Assembly (NCBI GenBank): GCA_014163555.1 | Contig: JACJGO010000004.1 | Coordinates: 62,001-126,000, forward strand | Source of the DNA: Flavisolibacter longurius | GTDB taxonomy: Bacteria; Bacteroidota; Bacteroidia; Chitinophagales; Chitinophagaceae | DNA: 64,000 nt | Reading direction: 5' to 3' | Shown here: positions 55,813-62,271 of the stretch, in pieces | How positions within the stretch are numbered: the first letter of the stretch is position 1 | How the letters are laid out: each line of letters starts with the position of its first letter | The notes under the pieces: model-generated | What the model was told of the DNA's origin: nothing | The model's database searches: none | The model's input: only the letters and a program-made list of their open reading frames with translations | Position numbers and translations under genes: made by a program

Positions 55813-55938
55813 TACCGAAAATAGTGAAAGTCAAACGCCTGCAGGGAGAAATCAAGCGCAAAAAAGCCTGATTGAAAAGCCTGTTTTGTGTTTTAACCTT
55901 TGCATTTGGGCCTCTGTTCGACATTTTCCGGAAAAACT

Positions 55939-55970
55939 TTTGCTCGCAATAGTTCCCCCGCTTATTTTTG
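55939..55970 (+). promoter_or_regulatory. Promoter of the histidine operon
   Basis: TTTG (55939-55942) and TATTTTTG (55963-55970) are separated by 20 bases, an excellent match to the Bacteroidota TTTG-N19/20-TAnnTTTG promoter. The predicted start lies at about 55975-55978, on the leader peptide ATG. Confidence 0.75.
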
Positions 55971-55977
55971 CGGCTCA

Positions 55978-56025
55978 ATGAATAAAAACGTACATATCCA
56001 TCATCATGCACTGCCTAACGGGTAA
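55978..56025 (+). CDS. hisL: Histidine operon leader peptide
   Basis: A 15-codon reading frame, MNKNVHIHHHALPNG, with four His codons in five positions (H6, H8, H9, H10), ending in TAA at 56023-56025. The only likely function is to sense charged tRNA-His. The promoter -7 box ends 7 bases upstream, so the mRNA is nearly leaderless. The stop codon lies in the antiterminator strand; see the attenuator at 56020-56089. It is too short for ordinary gene finding. Confidence 0.85.
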   Translation: MNKNVHIHHHALPNG

Positions 56026-56089
56026 GCTGTGATGTGATCTGTCATCTTATAAACAAAGGCTTACCCAACGGTAGGCCTTTTATTTTTTT
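56013..56089 (+). promoter_or_regulatory. Histidine attenuator: antiterminator and terminator
   Basis: GGGTAAGC (56020-56027) pairs with GCTTACCC (56059-56066), 8 perfect base pairs, and GCCTA (56013-56017) with TAGGC (56072-56076). The same 3' strand is also the 5' half of the terminator AAAGGCTTACC/GGTAGGCCTTT (56055-56065 with 56070-56080; one G-U pair; CAAC loop) followed by TATTTTTTT. A ribosome stalled at the His codons (up to 56007) leaves 56020 onwards free; one at the stop codon hides it, so the terminator forms when histidine is plentiful. Confidence 0.85.
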
Positions 56090-56092
56090 CGT

Positions 56093-56947
56093 ATGAATTT
56101 GAAATTAGCCATTCAAAAATCCGGCAGGCTGCACGAAGACAGCATCAAACTGCTCAATTTATGCGGCATCGCTGTAAAAAGCGGCAGCAACCAGTTGCGG
56201 TCACTGGCTGAAAATTTTCCGCTGGAAGTTTATTTTTTGCGCGACGATGATATTCCGCAGTATGTAGAAGATGGCGTAGCGCATATCGGCATTGTGGGCG
56301 AAAATGTGTTGTTTGAAAAAGACAAGGAAGCCGAGATTGTGGAATACCTGGGTTTTGGCAAATGCCGTCTTTCCATTGCCGTAAACAAAACCGATGCGTA
56401 CACATCCCCTGCATTTTTACAGGGAAAAAAGATTGCTACCAGCTACCCGGTGTTGACGCAGCGTTTTCTGGATGAAAACAGAATTCAGGCTGAGATTCAT
56501 GAAATCAGCGGTTCTGTAGAACTAGCGCCGGGCATTGGTCTTGCCGATGCGGTGTGTGACCTGGTCAGCAGCGGCTCCACGCTTTTTATGAACGGACTGC
56601 AGGAAGTGCAAACCATTTTAAAAAGTCAGGCGGTATTGGTGCGCAATAAAAATCTTAATGCCGACCAGCAAAAAATCCTTGACCAGATCCTCTTCCGCAT
56701 TCGTGCCGTTAACAAGGCAAAGAACAATAAATATGTACTGCTGAACGCACCCAACAGTTCGTTGCAGGAGATCATCCGGTTATTACCCGGTATGAAAAGT
56801 CCTACGGTATTGCCGCTGGCCGACAGCGACTGGAGTTCCGTACACAGTGTACTGCCGGAAGATGAGTTCTGGGAAAAGATTGAAGCCCTGCGCAATGCCG
56901 GTGCGCAAGGAATTTTAGTAGTACCGATTGAGAAGATGATCATTTAA
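56093..56947 (+). CDS. hisG: ATP phosphoribosyltransferase (long, HisZ-independent form)
   Basis: First enzyme of histidine synthesis, joining ATP and PRPP. 284 residues: catalytic periplasmic-binding-type fold with VEDGVAHIGIVGENVLFEK, GSVELAPGIGLADAVCDLVSSGSTL (PRPP loop) and a C-terminal ACT-like domain (LNAPNSSLQEIIRLLPGMKS; ILVVPIEKMI) that mediates histidine feedback inhibition, so HisZ is not needed. It follows the attenuator directly; the ATG is four bases after its T-tract. Confidence 0.97.
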   Translation: MNLKLAIQKSGRLHEDSIKLLNLCGIAVKSGSNQLRSLAENFPLEVYFLRDDDIPQYVEDGVAHIGIVGENVLFEKDKEAEIVEYLGFGKCRLSIAVNKTDAYTSPAFLQGKKIATSYPVLTQRFLDENRIQAEIHEISGSVELAPGIGLADAVCDLVSSGSTLFMNGLQEVQTILKSQAVLVRNKNLNADQQKILDQILFRIRAVNKAKNNKYVLLNAPNSSLQEIIRLLPGMKSPTVLPLADSDWSSVHSVLPEDEFWEKIEALRNAGAQGILVVPIEKMII

Positions 56948-56997: not shown

Positions 56998-58278
56998 ATG
57001 CAAGTAAAAATCAATCCAGAAAGGAAGGAATGGAAGCAGATTTTGCAACGGCCCTATGCCGATAATTCGGCTGTGTTGCAATCGGTGCAGGAGATTTTGG
57101 CGGACGTGAAGGAGAGAGGTGATAACGCTATACGGGAATTGACAAAGCGGTTCACCGGAGTTACACTTGATAGCCTGCGGGTTTCTGAAGAAGAGATCAA
57201 CAGTGCAGCCAGCCGACTGTCAGAAGGTTTAAAAGCCGCTATTCAGCAGGCCAAAAAAAATATCGAAACCTTTCACCAGCCACAGTTGGGAACAACGGAA
57301 ATCATCGAAACCATGCAAGGCGTTCAGTGCTGGCGAAAAAGTGTTGGCATTGAAAAAGTCGGGCTTTACATTCCGGGAGGAACCGCACCACTTTTTTCTA
57401 CGGTGTTGATGCTGGCCGTACCGGCAAAACTTGCTGGCTGCAAAGAGATCATTCTTTGCTCACCCTGTGATAAAGAAGGCCGTCTGCACCCGGCAATTTT
57501 GTATGCAGCGCAGCTAACGGGCATTACGAAAATCTTCCGCATCGGCGGTGCACAAGCCATTGCGGCAATGGCCTATGGAACGGAAAGCATTCCGGCTGTG
57601 TATAAAATTTTTGGTCCGGGTAACCAATATGTAACCGCAGCCAAGCAACTGGTACAAATGCAGGGCATTGCCATCGACATGCCGGCGGGTCCCAGCGAAG
57701 TTTGTGTGATGGCTGATGAAACCGCCAATGCTGCTTTTGTTGCGGCTGATTTGTTGTCGCAGGCAGAACACGGTGCTGATAGCCAGGTGCTGCTGGTGAG
57801 CAATGACGAAAAAGTTATTCGTGATGTACAAGCGGAATTAGAGAAACAATTGGCGCTTCTTCCTCGAAAGGAGATGGCACAAAAAGCACTGGACAACAGC
57901 AAGGCCATCGTGGTACAAAACTGGGATGAGGGAGTTGAACTGGTAAATGAATACGCTGCTGAACACCTAATCATCAGTTGTGCCGATGCGGATGTTTTAG
58001 CAGAACGAATCACCAATGCCGGTTCGGTTTTCATTGGCAATTACTCGCCTGAAAGTGTAGGCGATTATGCCAGCGGCACCAATCATACCCTGCCAACCAA
58101 TGGTTTTGCACGGGCCTATAGCGGCGTGAGTGTGGATAGCTATGTCAAGAAGATCACTTATCAGAAACTATCGGCAGAAGGCTTGCAGAACATTGCGGAA
58201 ACCGTGATTCAAATGGCGGAAGCGGAAGGGCTGGAGGCGCATGCTAACGCTGTAAAAGTTCGCATAACAGGTGAATAG
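56998..58278 (+). CDS. hisD: Histidinol dehydrogenase
   Basis: Zinc-dependent NAD enzyme for the last two oxidations to L-histidine. 426 residues: VGLYIPGGTAPLFSTVLMLAVPA, GPGNQYVTAAKQLV, PAGPSEVCVMADE (catalytic histidine region), LLSQAEHGADSQVLLVS, and SGTNHTLPTNGFARAYSGVS with the zinc-binding H. Complete. Gap of 50 bases from hisG. Confidence 0.97.
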   Translation: MQVKINPERKEWKQILQRPYADNSAVLQSVQEILADVKERGDNAIRELTKRFTGVTLDSLRVSEEEINSAASRLSEGLKAAIQQAKKNIETFHQPQLGTTEIIETMQGVQCWRKSVGIEKVGLYIPGGTAPLFSTVLMLAVPAKLAGCKEIILCSPCDKEGRLHPAILYAAQLTGITKIFRIGGAQAIAAMAYGTESIPAVYKIFGPGNQYVTAAKQLVQMQGIAIDMPAGPSEVCVMADETANAAFVAADLLSQAEHGADSQVLLVSNDEKVIRDVQAELEKQLALLPRKEMAQKALDNSKAIVVQNWDEGVELVNEYAAEHLIISCADADVLAERITNAGSVFIGNYSPESVGDYASGTNHTLPTNGFARAYSGVSVDSYVKKITYQKLSAEGLQNIAETVIQMAEAEGLEAHANAVKVRITGE

Positions 58279-58346
58279 AATTGTTGCCGTACAAGAGTGC
58301 GACGCAACCGCCGTTTATTAGTACCACAAAAGCTAAGTACATAAAA

Positions 58347-59402
58347 ATGAGTTTCAATTTACATAATCTCATCAGGGAGAATATCAAAAACCTTAAACCT
58401 TATTCCTCTGCCCGTAGCGAGTTCAGTGGGCGTGCCAGTGTTTACCTGGACGCCAACGAAAACAGCTTTGGGTCGCCACTAACGAAGTGGTATAACCGTT
58501 ATCCCGATCCGCTGCAATGGGAAGTGAAAAAAAAGCTTGCCGCCATTAAAATGGTGGATGCTGAAAATATGCTCCTGGGCAATGGGAGTGATGAATGCAT
58601 CGACCTCCTGATCCGTGCTTTTTGCGATCCGCAGCGGGATAACATTATCATTTGTCCGCCAACCTATGGCATGTATGAAGTGTATGCCCACATCAATGAT
58701 GTTCCGGTAAAAGAAGTGCCACTGACACCAACCTATCAGCTCAACCTGGAAGCATTGGAAGAAGCGGTGGACGGGGACACCAAGGTCATTTTTTTCTGTT
58801 CGCCCAACAACCCAACCGGCAACAGTCTTGACCGCGAAGACATTGAAATGGTGCTGAACAATTTTGACGGCATTGTAGTGGTGGATGAAGCTTATATCAA
58901 TTACAGCCGCAGCCGTTCGTTTCTTACCGAGTTGAAAGACTATCCCAACCTGGTGGTGATGCAAACATTCTCCAAAGCCTGGGGGCTGGCGGCCCTGCGT
59001 TTGGGAATGATTTATGCGTCGAAAGAAATTGTAGAGGTACTGAACAAGATCAAGCCTCCCTACAACATCAACCAGGCCACGCAGGAGCTGGTGCTAAAGG
59101 CGCTGGACAATTTGCAGGATGTCAACACCATGATCACCGAAACCGTAAAGCTTCGGGACCAAATGGTAAAAGACCTGGTGGCAACACCTACTGTTCAAAA
59201 GGTTTATCCTTCCGACGCCAACTTCCTTTTGGTGAAAGTAACCGATGCCAATGCAATCTATGCCTGGCTTCGCGAAAGGGGCATCATTGTCCGTAACCGC
59301 AACAATGTGCTGCTTTGCGAAGGTTGTTTACGCATTACCATTGGTACGGAACGGGAAAATGCAGCCTTGCTGGAGGCGCTGAAAAATTATAAACAGGACT
59401 AA
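58347..59402 (+). CDS. hisC: Histidinol-phosphate aminotransferase
   Basis: PLP-dependent class-I/II aminotransferase for imidazole-acetol phosphate, 351 residues from ATG 58347 (MSFNLHNLIRENIKNLKPYS). GNGSDECIDLL, PPTYGMYEVYA, SPNNPTGN and VVVDEAYI are family motifs; K210 in TFSKAWGLAALRLG holds PLP. The open frame is longer upstream (TTG at 58281), but the family begins at MSFNLHNL. Ends 21 bases before the sugar dehydrogenase frame begins. Confidence 0.96.
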   Translation: MSFNLHNLIRENIKNLKPYSSARSEFSGRASVYLDANENSFGSPLTKWYNRYPDPLQWEVKKKLAAIKMVDAENMLLGNGSDECIDLLIRAFCDPQRDNIIICPPTYGMYEVYAHINDVPVKEVPLTPTYQLNLEALEEAVDGDTKVIFFCSPNNPTGNSLDREDIEMVLNNFDGIVVVDEAYINYSRSRSFLTELKDYPNLVVMQTFSKAWGLAALRLGMIYASKEIVEVLNKIKPPYNINQATQELVLKALDNLQDVNTMITETVKLRDQMVKDLVATPTVQKVYPSDANFLLVKVTDANAIYAWLRERGIIVRNRNNVLLCEGCLRITIGTERENAALLEALKNYKQD

Positions 59403-59438
59403 CGTATTTTAGTCGCTCTTTCAATGATACAACCACAA

Positions 59439-60680
59439 ATGAAAAAATTTCTGACGCTGGCACTTGCCGCAACCTTTTCTTCAGCCGCTATTGCACAAAC
59501 TGCAAAAGAGGTGACTATCACCCTTCCTGCCGGCTTTCGCACTGCCGTTGTAGCCAAAGACCTTGGCAGGGCCCGGCACCTTGCTGTAAACAGCAATGGT
59601 GATATCTACATTAAACTCGAACGCCTGAAAGGCGGCAAAGGCATCATTCGCCTGAGCGATAAAAACGGCGATGGCCGAATAGATGATACTACCGGGTTCG
59701 GGACCTACATTGGTACAGGCATCGCTATCAAAAATGGTTATCTCTATGCTTCGTCGAACAGTGAGGTGTACCGGTATAAATTCAACGGTGCCAATGTGGA
59801 TACGGCCAGTCGTGAAACGATTGTTACAGGTTTAGTAGACCGCAGGCAACATGCGTCCAAATCCATAACACTGGACAATAACGGGAATTTGTATGTGAAC
59901 ATCGGAGCGCCGTCAAACGTTTGCCAGGAAAAGGACAGGGCAACCGGCGAACCCGGACAGGATCCTTGCCCGCTGCTGGAAACCACCGGCGGGATCTGGC
60001 AGTTCAAGGCGGATAAACTGAATCAATCCTATGCCGAAGGCGTCCGTTATGCAACGGGTTTGCGCAACGTGGTCGGACTTGATTGGAACACTGCCACCAA
60101 CACCTTATTTGCCATGCAGCATGGCCGCGATGGCTTGCAGGATTATAAACTTTTTCCCGATTCGGTAGCGGTGGAATTGCCTTCGGAAGTAATGGTGGAA
60201 GTCACCAAAGCCGGTGATAATTTTGGCTGGCCCTATTGCTTTTACAACCAGTTTGAAGGCAAAAATGTACTCAATCCTGAATACGGCGGCGATGGCAAAA
60301 CAGTGGGCCGTTGTGCCGATGTAAAGCAACCGGTAGTGGCTTTCCCTGGTCACCTCGCACCAAATGCATTGCTGTTTTATACTGGCAACCAGTTTCCTGA
60401 AAAATACCAAAACGGTGCTTTTGTGGCTTTCCATGGTTCGTGGAACCGTACACCCTTAAATCAGCAGGGATTCTTTGTTGCGTTTGTACCGTTTAAAGAT
60501 GGCAAACCATCCGGTAAATGGGAAGTATTTGCCAACGGTTTTGCCGGCAGTGAAGCCATCACCGCACCACGGCAGGCCGTGTACCGTCCCTGTGGCCTGG
60601 CACAAGGTCCGGATGGATCGTTGTATGTTTCGGATGATGTAAAAGGAAATGTTTGGAAAATCAGTTATGCCGCGAAATAA
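59439..60680 (+). CDS. Secreted PQQ-type sugar dehydrogenase (sorbosone/glucose dehydrogenase family)
   Basis: About 413 residues from ATG 59439 (MKKFLTLALAATFSSAAIAQ signal; ATG 59424 is an alternative). Six-bladed GSDH-type propeller features: LSDKNGDGRIDDTTGFGTY, GLRNVVGLDWNTATNTLFAMQHGRD, GDNFGWPYCFYNQ, AFHGSWNRTPL, and GSLYVSDDVKGNVWKI. Oxidises aldoses or similar alcohols in the periplasm. Why it sits inside the histidine operon is unclear; the next gene is a cytochrome c that can take its electrons. Confidence 0.92.
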   Translation: MKKFLTLALAATFSSAAIAQTAKEVTITLPAGFRTAVVAKDLGRARHLAVNSNGDIYIKLERLKGGKGIIRLSDKNGDGRIDDTTGFGTYIGTGIAIKNGYLYASSNSEVYRYKFNGANVDTASRETIVTGLVDRRQHASKSITLDNNGNLYVNIGAPSNVCQEKDRATGEPGQDPCPLLETTGGIWQFKADKLNQSYAEGVRYATGLRNVVGLDWNTATNTLFAMQHGRDGLQDYKLFPDSVAVELPSEVMVEVTKAGDNFGWPYCFYNQFEGKNVLNPEYGGDGKTVGRCADVKQPVVAFPGHLAPNALLFYTGNQFPEKYQNGAFVAFHGSWNRTPLNQQGFFVAFVPFKDGKPSGKWEVFANGFAGSEAITAPRQAVYRPCGLAQGPDGSLYVSDDVKGNVWKISYAAK

Positions 60681-60681
60681 A

Positions 60682-61125
60682 ATGAGGATGAAAGCTCTTG
60701 TATTGCTGTTTTTGCTGCTGCCCTTTTTTGCTGTAGCACAAACGAAAAAAGTTCAGAAGATACCTGGGACAGCTACCACTGCCAGCCTGCAACAGTCTAT
60801 TGGCAATGGGAAGACCGTGTACACAACGTTTTGCCTTTCCTGTCACCAGGCCGATGGTTCCGGCGTGCCCAATTTAAACCCGCCGCTGATTCAAAATGAC
60901 TGGGTGTTGGGTCCAAAAAACGTGTTGATTGAACAGGTGTTGATGGGCTCAAAAGGAAAGGTGGAAATTGATGGAGAAACCTTTCACAATTCCATGCCAC
61001 CGATGGCTCACCTCACCGATCAGCAGATTGCCGATGTGATTACGTATATACGTAACAGCTTTGGCAACAAAGCCAGCCGTGTAGCGCCGGCTGAAGTAAA
61101 AGCACTCAGAGCAAAAACTAAATAA
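60682..61125 (+). CDS. Secreted cytochrome c
   Basis: 147 residues from ATG 60682: signal MRMKALVLLFLLLPFFAVAQ, heme c site CLSCH (51-55), and an axial-ligand Met candidate in HNSMPPMAHLTD (M105 or M108). Starts one base after the preceding stop codon (TAAAATG), which supports translational coupling to the sugar dehydrogenase and a role as its electron acceptor. Ends 6 bases before hisB. Confidence 0.92.
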   Translation: MRMKALVLLFLLLPFFAVAQTKKVQKIPGTATTASLQQSIGNGKTVYTTFCLSCHQADGSGVPNLNPPLIQNDWVLGPKNVLIEQVLMGSKGKVEIDGETFHNSMPPMAHLTDQQIADVITYIRNSFGNKASRVAPAEVKALRAKTK

Positions 61126-61131
61126 TACGCT

Positions 61132-62271
61132 GTGAAGAAATGTTTGTTTATTGACAGGGATGGTACGATGATCAATGAATTCCCGCCCTTGTACCAGATC
61201 GATTCGTTGGAGAAAGTGACTTTTTATCCAGGGGCGTTGAAGTACCTGGGAAAGATTTATGAAGAGCTGGATTATGAATTTATCTTGGTGTCTAACCAGG
61301 ATGGACTGGGTACGCCAACATTTACGGAAGAACAGTTTTGGCCGGCCCATAACCTGGTGATCAATACCTTCAAGGGTGAGGGTATAACCTTTAAAGAAGA
61401 ACTCATTGACCGCAGTTATCCCGAAGATGGACTGGACACCCGGAAACCGGGGATTGGCATGTTCAAAGCCTACCTGAATAATAAGGACTATGATATACCA
61501 AATTCCTACGTCATTGGCGATCGGATTACCGATGTGCAACTGGCAAAGAACTTAGGTTGCAAGGCTATCTGGATTAAAAACAATCCTGATTTAGGCGGCG
61601 CGGAGATCAACAATAAGCCGGAAGAACTGGAACAGGTGGTTGCGCTGGCCACAACGGACTGGAAAGAAGTTTACGAATTCCTGAAAAAGGAAGAAAGAAC
61701 GGTAGTGCATACCCGTAAAACCTCGGAAACGGAGATCACCATCGAACTGAACCTGGACGGCAGCGGGAAGGCGTCTATCCATACAGGTTTGGGCTTTTTC
61801 GATCACATGCTCGATCAGATTGCCCGCCACGGATTAATCGATCTTCGCATTGAGGCGAAGGGAGACCTGCACATTGACGAACACCATACAATTGAAGACA
61901 CAGGTATTGCGTTGGGCGAAGCCATCGCCAAAGCCCTGGGTGACAAACGCGGAATCGAGCGGTACGGGTTTGCCCTGCCGATGGATGAAGCCGAAGCCAA
62001 AGTGCTGATCGATTTTGGGGGACGAAACTGGATTGTCTGGAATACATCTTTCAGCCGGGAAAAAGTTGGCGATATGCCGACGGAGATGTTCTTTCACTTT
62101 TTTAAATCTTTCTCTGATGCGGCAAAATGTAACCTGAACATCGAATGCAGGGGAGAAAACGAGCATCATAAAATTGAAGCGATTTTCAAAGCCTTTGCAA
62201 AAGCTATCAAAATGGCCGTGAAAAAAGACCCGTTAAAGAATTATTTGCCCAGTACCAAGGGTGTTTTATAA
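61132..62271 (+). CDS. hisB: Bifunctional histidinol-phosphatase/imidazoleglycerol-phosphate dehydratase
   Basis: 379 residues, start GTG at 61132 (GTGAAGAAATGT). N-terminal HAD phosphatase ([21 protein letters not shown]8 and D10 catalytic; [18 protein letters not shown]) fused to IGPD ([56 protein letters not shown] with the metal histidines; [20 protein letters not shown]). Catalyses two steps of the pathway. Last histidine gene here; hisH, hisA, hisF and hisI are not in this window. Confidence 0.97.

Follow-up and report, generated by a model that had tools for sequence, protein, structure and literature searches.

A putative histidine-responsive leader-peptide attenuator with an apparently (near-)leaderless leader ORF upstream of hisG in Bacteroidota

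The enterobacterial his leader (RF00514) combines a run of His codons in a short leader ORF with alternative antiterminator and terminator structures in front of the his operon, and the element described here, located upstream of a hisG gene of Bacteroidota, is alike in each of these respects. It differs from RF00514 in that the leader appears to be (near-)leaderless, the leader stop codon lies inside the antiterminator strand, the promoter is of the Bacteroidota type and mostly five residues separate the last His from the stop codon. The enterobacterial anatomy is described in part in PMC9413887, which also reports His leader attenuators in the Bacillus cereus group, Peptostreptococcaceae and Erysipelotrichales. 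Like the present element, those Firmicutes leaders show a His-run peptide, a terminator and an antiterminator before his operons and no match to RF00514; unlike here, neither a stop-codon strand nor a leaderless feature is described in that portion of the article. Leader-peptide systems had been known only in Proteobacteria and Actinobacteria before the Bacilli case presented in PMC2965389 (2010), according to that paper. In S. meliloti, trpL is a transcription attenuator with the leader ATG at the very 5' end of its RNA (PMC7298713, in part); that system belongs to another phylum and concerns Trp, and leaderlessness is deduced here from promoter spacing across many loci.

Within Bacteroidota, the accessible part of PMC9723704 (2021) offers indications that leader peptides attenuate amino-acid operons in F. 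psychrophilum, and mentions 5' elements without an Rfam family before hisG and pheA in other Flavobacteriaceae. The present element shares with these the phylum, the genes and the lack of Rfam matches, and differs in that its anatomy is given here, anatomy being absent from what that part of the paper says of the hisG and pheA elements. The preliminary description of our locus had considered a compact two-state version of such control little described in Bacteroidota, which is roughly right, save that the same article, in the part seen, had already flagged hisG 5' elements without their anatomy. In one family of our own collection (f16, perhaps Flavobacteriaceae, which is a guess) the arrangement is different, the antiterminator strand lying 10-18 nt before the stop codon in 12/12 leaders. 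The Bacteroid-trp RNA (RF01692), a candidate cis-regulatory RNA of Bacteroidetes (PMC2864571, in part), is a trp element by name and matched neither the trpE leader of this genome (L258) nor the present element. Neither the window nor 60 further loci (57 hisG, and one each for pheA, thrA and trpE) gave an Rfam match covering the element, the only matches at gathering score in the further loci being three tRNAs and one SRP RNA. Membership in RF00514 was rejected, with no match at the gathering threshold in the window or the 60 loci and none below threshold in the window (E up to 10). Several names that appeared in the window far below their gathering scores (STnc430, STnc370, RefA9, MicX, Phe_leader, ctRNA_p42d and XIST_A_REPEAT) were taken as chance. 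A search of the literature, in the portions of the articles available, returned no description of this element's anatomy. What is new is the combination of features and its spread, the kind of attenuation itself being known. A survey of attenuation by Lopatovskaya et al. in 2010, cited in PMC4833913, may already list Bacteroidetes his leaders.

The window, that is the whole stretch of 64,000 nucleotides analysed, carries the following features, given in its own coordinates. The leader ORF, its His run and strands 2a, 3 and 4 are apparent from the sequence and its comparison with relatives, and the same holds for the conservation of these parts and for the ruler and promoter spacing considered below.

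55938-55942, + strand: -33-like TTTTG, 20 nt upstream of the -7 box, read in the sequence
55963-55970, + strand: -7 box TATTTTTG, an exact TAnnTTTG, 7 nt 5' of the leader ATG
55978-56025, + strand: leader ORF MNKNVHIHHHALPNG, 15 codons, ATG at 55978-55980 and stop codon TAA at 56023-56025
55993-56007, + strand: His codons H6, H8, H9 and H10, starting at 55993, 55999, 56002 and 56005
56020-56027, + strand: antiterminator strand 2a GGGTAAGC, with the leader stop codon inside it
56030-56043, + strand: strand 2b TGATGTGATCTGTC, candidate partner of the His-codon region, favoured by energies and not by column counts
56055-56080, + strand: intrinsic terminator hairpin of 11 pairs, -15.1 kcal/mol, composed of arm AAAGGCTTACC, loop CAAC and arm GGTAGGCCTTT
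56058-56066, + strand: strand 3 GGCTTACCC, common to antiterminator and terminator
56059-56066, + strand: partner of 2a, GCTTACCC, by direct reading of the sequence
56081-56089, + strand: T-rich tail of the terminator, by direct reading of the sequence
56093-56947, + strand: hisG, long form with C-terminal domain (Pfam HisG, E 1.7e-52)
56998-58278, + strand: hisD
58281-59402, + strand: hisC-like aminotransferase (Pfam Aminotran_1_2), the name hisC being inferred from position
61132-62271, + strand: hisB (HAD phosphatase and IGPD), with two unrelated genes between hisC and hisB

Every coordinate that the preliminary description had assigned to the leader, its His positions and stop codon, 2a and its partner, the terminator, the T-tract and hisG proved correct; its anatomy stands, and what it had overlooked is the exact -7 box, the 16-nt ruler and the spread of the element. 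The nearest named matches of hisG are in Flavisolibacter longurius (93%) and F. nicotianae (91%), of the Chitinophagaceae, and its ATG at 56093 lies only 12 nt past the end of the terminator, which leaves little room for a second promoter. The two genes between hisC and hisB (59424-61125) encode a glucose/sorbosone dehydrogenase-like protein and a cytochrome c, and hisB is followed by a sugar-isomerase-like gene (62433); hisH, hisA, hisF and hisI are thus not the next genes in the portion of the window examined. A folding energy of -31.9 kcal/mol was predicted for the 118-nt stretch, as against -19.5 (sd 3.2) for shuffled sequences (z -3.9), and 0/200 shuffles folded as well. The terminator alone is within chance, a simple scan of the 1-kb region giving 2 where 1.6 are expected, and the weight rests on its conservation.

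We consider it very probable that the element attenuates transcription of the hisG operon in response to histidine, by means of a ribosome translating a (near-)leaderless leader ORF. From the features listed above we infer a start site, translation of the leader, stalling, antitermination and a response to histidine in the following sequence. Judging from the -7 box, transcription would begin about 3 nt 5' of the leader ATG, so that a ribosome could bind at the 5' end with no need of a Shine-Dalgarno sequence. When charged tRNA-His is scarce, the ribosome would wait at a His codon with its front edge short of 2a, and the free 2a would pair with the emerging strand 3 ahead of the synthesis of strand 4, allowing RNA polymerase to enter hisG. 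When histidine is plentiful, the ribosome would arrive at the stop codon inside 2a and cover that strand, in which case strand 3 would pair with strand 4 and transcription would stop at the T-tract.

The leader is widely conserved upstream of hisG, in counts of loci which, here and below, ignore shared ancestry. Two hisG searches together with the window's own locus yielded 99 loci, of which 98 were usable (L019, a hisG fragment, was left out) and 87 remained once 11 identical upstream regions were taken out; a His-rich short ORF lies 5' of hisG in 95/98 and 84/87, respectively. A search of the phylum found hisG in 325/392 genomes, and 100 loci were hand-picked so as to represent many families, among the best-scoring places that the search listed for these 325 genomes, a non-random draw. 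Under a strict definition of the His run (4 or more His within 9 codons), such an ORF is present in 83 of the 100 phylum loci, against 0/100 reverse complements and 3/1000 dinucleotide shuffles, a convincing result on which a chance origin of the His-run ORF was rejected; a loose version (at least 3 His), found in 88/100 loci, is also common in the controls (12/100 reverse complements and 242/1000 shuffles) and is therefore unconvincing alone. A short leader ORF with many codons for the operon's own amino acid, as expected of ribosome-mediated attenuators, is accordingly found at this locus and in its relatives. Carriers named beyond Chitinophagaceae include Saprospiraceae, Algoriphagus, Litoribacter, Lunatimonas, an Ignavibacteriales bin and two Neomarinimicrobiota bins.

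Scanned with a covariance model of this element, the genome shows a single copy at E up to 0.001, at this locus, and the model's best match adjoins hisG on the 5' side in 15/15 other same-genus genomes that have hisG. Extra weak matches occur in two same-genus genomes (G005 and G007), the model gave no match in two hisG-bearing genomes of the same order (G018 and G025), and in a class-wide draw 74/198 genomes had a match, many of them weak and unchecked. This placement bears on the idea that the T-tract hairpin simply ends a standalone small RNA or peptide gene unrelated to hisG control. Action in trans of attenuated transcripts has been reported for rnTrpL and peTrpL of S. meliloti (PMC7298713, in the portion available), which lends the idea some plausibility. 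Nevertheless, besides the model's best matches lying beside hisG, the 12-nt gap means that hisG would need read-through or a promoter inside the leader, and the His run, the ruler and the antiterminator strand are conserved together 5' of hisG. On the grounds of the 12 nt to hisG and of the model matches beside it, a standalone RNA was rejected, and we regard it as extremely unlikely.

The two alternative helices were compared in 68 unique Chitinophagaceae-type loci (L001-L016, L025-L072, L079 and L100-L109), a subset of 93 distinct leaders that were pooled from leader-bearing loci and from family f1 of the phylum set. Some of the 68 come from bins labelled only Bacteroidetes and one (L034) is labelled Beijerinckiaceae; the set was drawn from leader-bearing loci, so loci without a leader ORF (e.g. 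L035) are excluded from it. The terminator was found in 68/68, by a finder run without a shuffled-sequence control. Without any use of the 2a motif, the best complement of the terminator 5' arm overlaps the leader stop codon in 60/68 loci, the overlap being absent in the other 8/68, and it outdoes at least 95 of 100 shuffles in 63/68. The preliminary description had proposed a His-leader transcription attenuator with the leader stop codon inside the antiterminator strand, and had named beforehand the loss of this pairing in close relatives as the finding that would speak against it; the motif-free count of 60/68 loci supports the proposal and shows the pairing retained.

In the 55 aligned loci, which were selected by the 2a motif, strand 3 and the T-tract, 98.7% of 380 cells of the 2a:3 helix are paired, a figure that reflects a choice made partly by motif, compares with 98.8% in shuffles and includes double changes in 0/380 cells. 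Conservation without covariation is what would be expected if strand 3 pairs twice and 2a holds a stop codon, and the conservation of 2a:3 is thus no independent proof of the helix. The stop codons of these loci are TAA (33), TAG (14) and TGA (8), each keeping standard pairs with strand 3. Likewise, the seven bases around the stop codon in the 93 leaders are most often GGTAAGC (31), GGTAGGC (15) or GGTGAGC (9), each able to pair with GCTTACC, and among the 55 loci the heptamer pairs with strand 3 at 7/7 bases in 45 and at 6/7 in 10. In three Chitinophaga loci (L059, L065 and L066) the antiterminator strand is kept within the leader ORF and the stop codon comes about six codons later, which indicates that the strand, and not the stop codon, is the constant. 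The terminator itself does covary, with compensatory double changes in 16/435 cells, a value reached by 0/500 shuffles.

A strong hairpin might alternatively act on translation, by sequestering the hisG start rather than ending transcription. The start of hisG 12 nt past the hairpin would suit such a role, and attenuators that sequester a ribosome-binding site exist (PMC9413887, in the text seen). Against this, a strong hairpin followed by a T-tract is present in 68/68 Chitinophagaceae-type loci, and in several of them the match to hisG begins at least 100 nt past the leader stop codon, beyond the hairpin (103 nt in L005, 143 in L010, 146 in L028 and 209 in L050). We therefore judge translational control to be very unlikely and return to transcription attenuation.

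The geometry of the leader fits attenuation of transcription as well. At this locus the last His codon starts at 56005, 16 nt 5' of 56021, where the core of 2a begins, by direct reading of the sequence; measured in the same way, from first base to first base, the last His codon and 2a are exactly 16 nt apart in 51/68 loci. Five residues follow the last His in 50/68, and this ruler is fixed despite variability across the 68 loci in the number of His (3-6), the N-terminal sequence and the intervening residues. Since a ribosome extends about 12-13 nt past the codon in its A site, one with the last His codon in that site would just leave 2a free. Fold prediction gives the antiterminator, at -16.9 kcal/mol, if a ribosome occupies the His codons before strand 4 has been transcribed, and the terminator if the ribosome sits at the stop codon. 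The predictions are alike in 55/55 relatives, an agreement that is partly circular since the 2a motif had a part in their selection. Complementarity, geometry and predicted folds thus all indicate an antiterminator that is mutually exclusive with the terminator.

The fold predicted before strand 4 is made favours the antiterminator also when no ribosome is present, which leaves termination without translation unexplained. In enterobacterial his and trp leaders, a protector hairpin leads to termination when the leader is not translated. A classical three-strand attenuator of this type, in which the His-codon region would pair with 2b and hold 2a so that the terminator wins without translation, is a version of our preferred explanation, not its opposite, and to our mind its chances fall a little short of even. 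The minimum free energy structure of the full leader does pair the His-codon region with the 2b stretch, and the leader:2b duplex averages -13.3, compared with -10.3 for shuffled 2b and -12.3 when partners are swapped between loci (permutation 0.00095). On the other hand, only 16/55 loci outdo 95 of 100 shuffles in this duplex, fixed-column pairing between His codons and 2b amounts to 69.8% against 71.0% in shuffles, and with strand 3 but no strand 4 the predicted minimum is the antiterminator. The compact two-state design named in the preliminary description is accordingly no more than a candidate: duplex energies suggest a third pairing and fixed-column counts do not.

The proposed start of transcription derives from promoter spacing. 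The Bacteroidota promoter consensus is TTTG / TAnnTTTG (PMC7366714, as far as available), and in F. psychrophilum the -7 box lies at -12 to -5 (PMC9723704, in part); such a position, taken from another family, would put the start at 55975, leaving 3 nt in front of the leader ATG. Among the 68 Chitinophagaceae-type loci, a -7 box (at least 5/6 bases) is found 4-11 nt 5' of the leader start in 60 and nearer in none; in 21 of the 68 it lies at exactly 4 nt, which would place the ATG at +1, in one it lies at 15 nt, and the remaining 7 lack it throughout the 24 nt searched. As a control, ATG triplets on the + strand of the window have such a box at at least 5/6 bases in 69/1161 cases and an exact one in 4/1161, and an exact box within 11 nt precedes 1/47 of the window's genes. 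The 4-11 nt spacing predicts a 5'UTR of 0-7 nt, and of 3 nt at this locus, so the leader is apparently (near-)leaderless. For comparison, leaderless mRNAs make up 5.5% in F. psychrophilum (PMC9723704) and 5'UTRs shorter than 10 nt about 3.7% in B. thetaiotaomicron (PMC7366714), both figures from the portions of these papers seen. A scan of the region for sigma70-type promoters found nothing, as expected for this phylum. In family f16, exact -7 boxes precede 5/12 leaders at 17-19 nt upstream of the start, and no exact -7 box was found before the leaders of several other families outside the Chitinophagaceae type.

Leaders of comparable design were also seen at other amino-acid genes. In pheA, a Phe/Tyr-rich leader with a terminator starts 5-8 nt past an exact -7 box in 8/10 loci (L239-L245 and L247), and in this genome (L242) the leader MTKATTYRGFYFYFYFGKSRDCFC, with FYFYFYF, starts 8 nt past such a box. 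In trpE, all 3/3 stretches fetched (L258-L260, with L258 from this genome) carry a WWW leader with a terminator, the start codon lying 5-7 nt past CATATTTG, which is one base off the -7 consensus. The scans for leaders of trpE, thrA, asd and asnB were made without a chance control, and their counts are to be read accordingly: Thr-rich ORFs in 5/5 thrA loci, where a terminator was not found, Lys-rich leaders in 17/28 asd loci whose gene start was found, this genome included, and Asn-run leaders in 3/6 asnB loci. The asd leader, Lys/Thr-rich, resembling KHTKRTKK and accompanied by a terminator in loci among L298-L327 (L303 in this genome), is a candidate lysine leader-peptide attenuator. At asnB, leader peptides with an Asn run, accompanied by a terminator, were seen in L265, L268, L270 and L271. 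Exact -7 boxes are present before 2/17 asd leaders and 0/3 asnB leaders. Seven weak covariance-model matches away from hisG were examined, and three lead to leader candidates of biosynthetic genes: asnB with NNN (L265), asd with a Lys-rich peptide (L267) and asd cut by the contig end (L261). In a fourth (L263, an aminotransferase) no single amino acid is especially frequent in the peptide, and no leader was seen in L262, L264 and L266. Upstream of ilvD, a search of 4 loci turned up no convincing leader.

A second class of His leader has no detectable terminator. Of 106 strict His leaders from the phylum set and the other loci, 64 have a terminator and in 42 none was found, some of the latter (e.g. 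L166-L168) being doubtful ORFs. The median number of residues after the last His is 7 with a terminator and 2 without, and 3 or fewer residues follow it in 6/64 and 32/42, respectively (Mann-Whitney 9e-12, ancestry ignored). In the 80 nt past the stop codon, mean C and G are 0.25 and 0.14 in the terminator-less leaders compared with 0.16 and 0.19 in those with a terminator, and in family f35 G falls to 0.08 in the stretch past the stop. The terminator-less leaders at hisG are found at these loci:

L115-L120, L135-L138, L141, L142, L169-L178, L190, L191, L195 and L199
further loci: L078, L081, L083, L086-L089 and L093-L095

From composition and spacing, this class looks like a candidate for Rho-dependent control: a ribosome halted on the last codons of the leader would cover a Rho-loading site.

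Bacteroidota do without Shine-Dalgarno sequences and have different promoters, and leader-peptide attenuation requires the first ribosome to be close behind RNA polymerase. A conserved attenuator with a 16-nt ribosome ruler is comparative evidence for such coupling of ribosome and RNA polymerase in this phylum, leaderless loading would be a simple possible answer to how it arises, and the coupling becomes testable in a genus with cultured members. More broadly, we put forward as a tentative generalization, which we think somewhat improbable as it stands, that Bacteroidota may have phylum-wide amino-acid attenuators, many of them leaderless, one class using an intrinsic terminator and a second a stalled ribosome that blocks Rho. 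If so, the first ribosome would load at the 5' end as the RNA leaves RNA polymerase, and the terminator class would include, in the same genome, his with its fixed ribosome ruler, pheA with FYFYFYF and trpE with WWW. An RNA family which was not found in Rfam here could also serve to annotate his operons across a large phylum, and the comparison has brought to light the terminator-less variant, whose mechanism is a candidate only, possibly Rho-dependent.

A minor observation, made by eye, concerns thrA leaders (L249-L253) and three hisG leaders (L074, L081 and L084), in which an inverted repeat lies at or beside the leader stop codon and is followed by a CATATNGCC...GGGC-like stretch. The repeat and this stretch are common to the same-genus thrA leaders and to the his leaders of three other taxa, namely Litoribacter, Cyclobacteriaceae bacterium YHN15 and Nitritalea.
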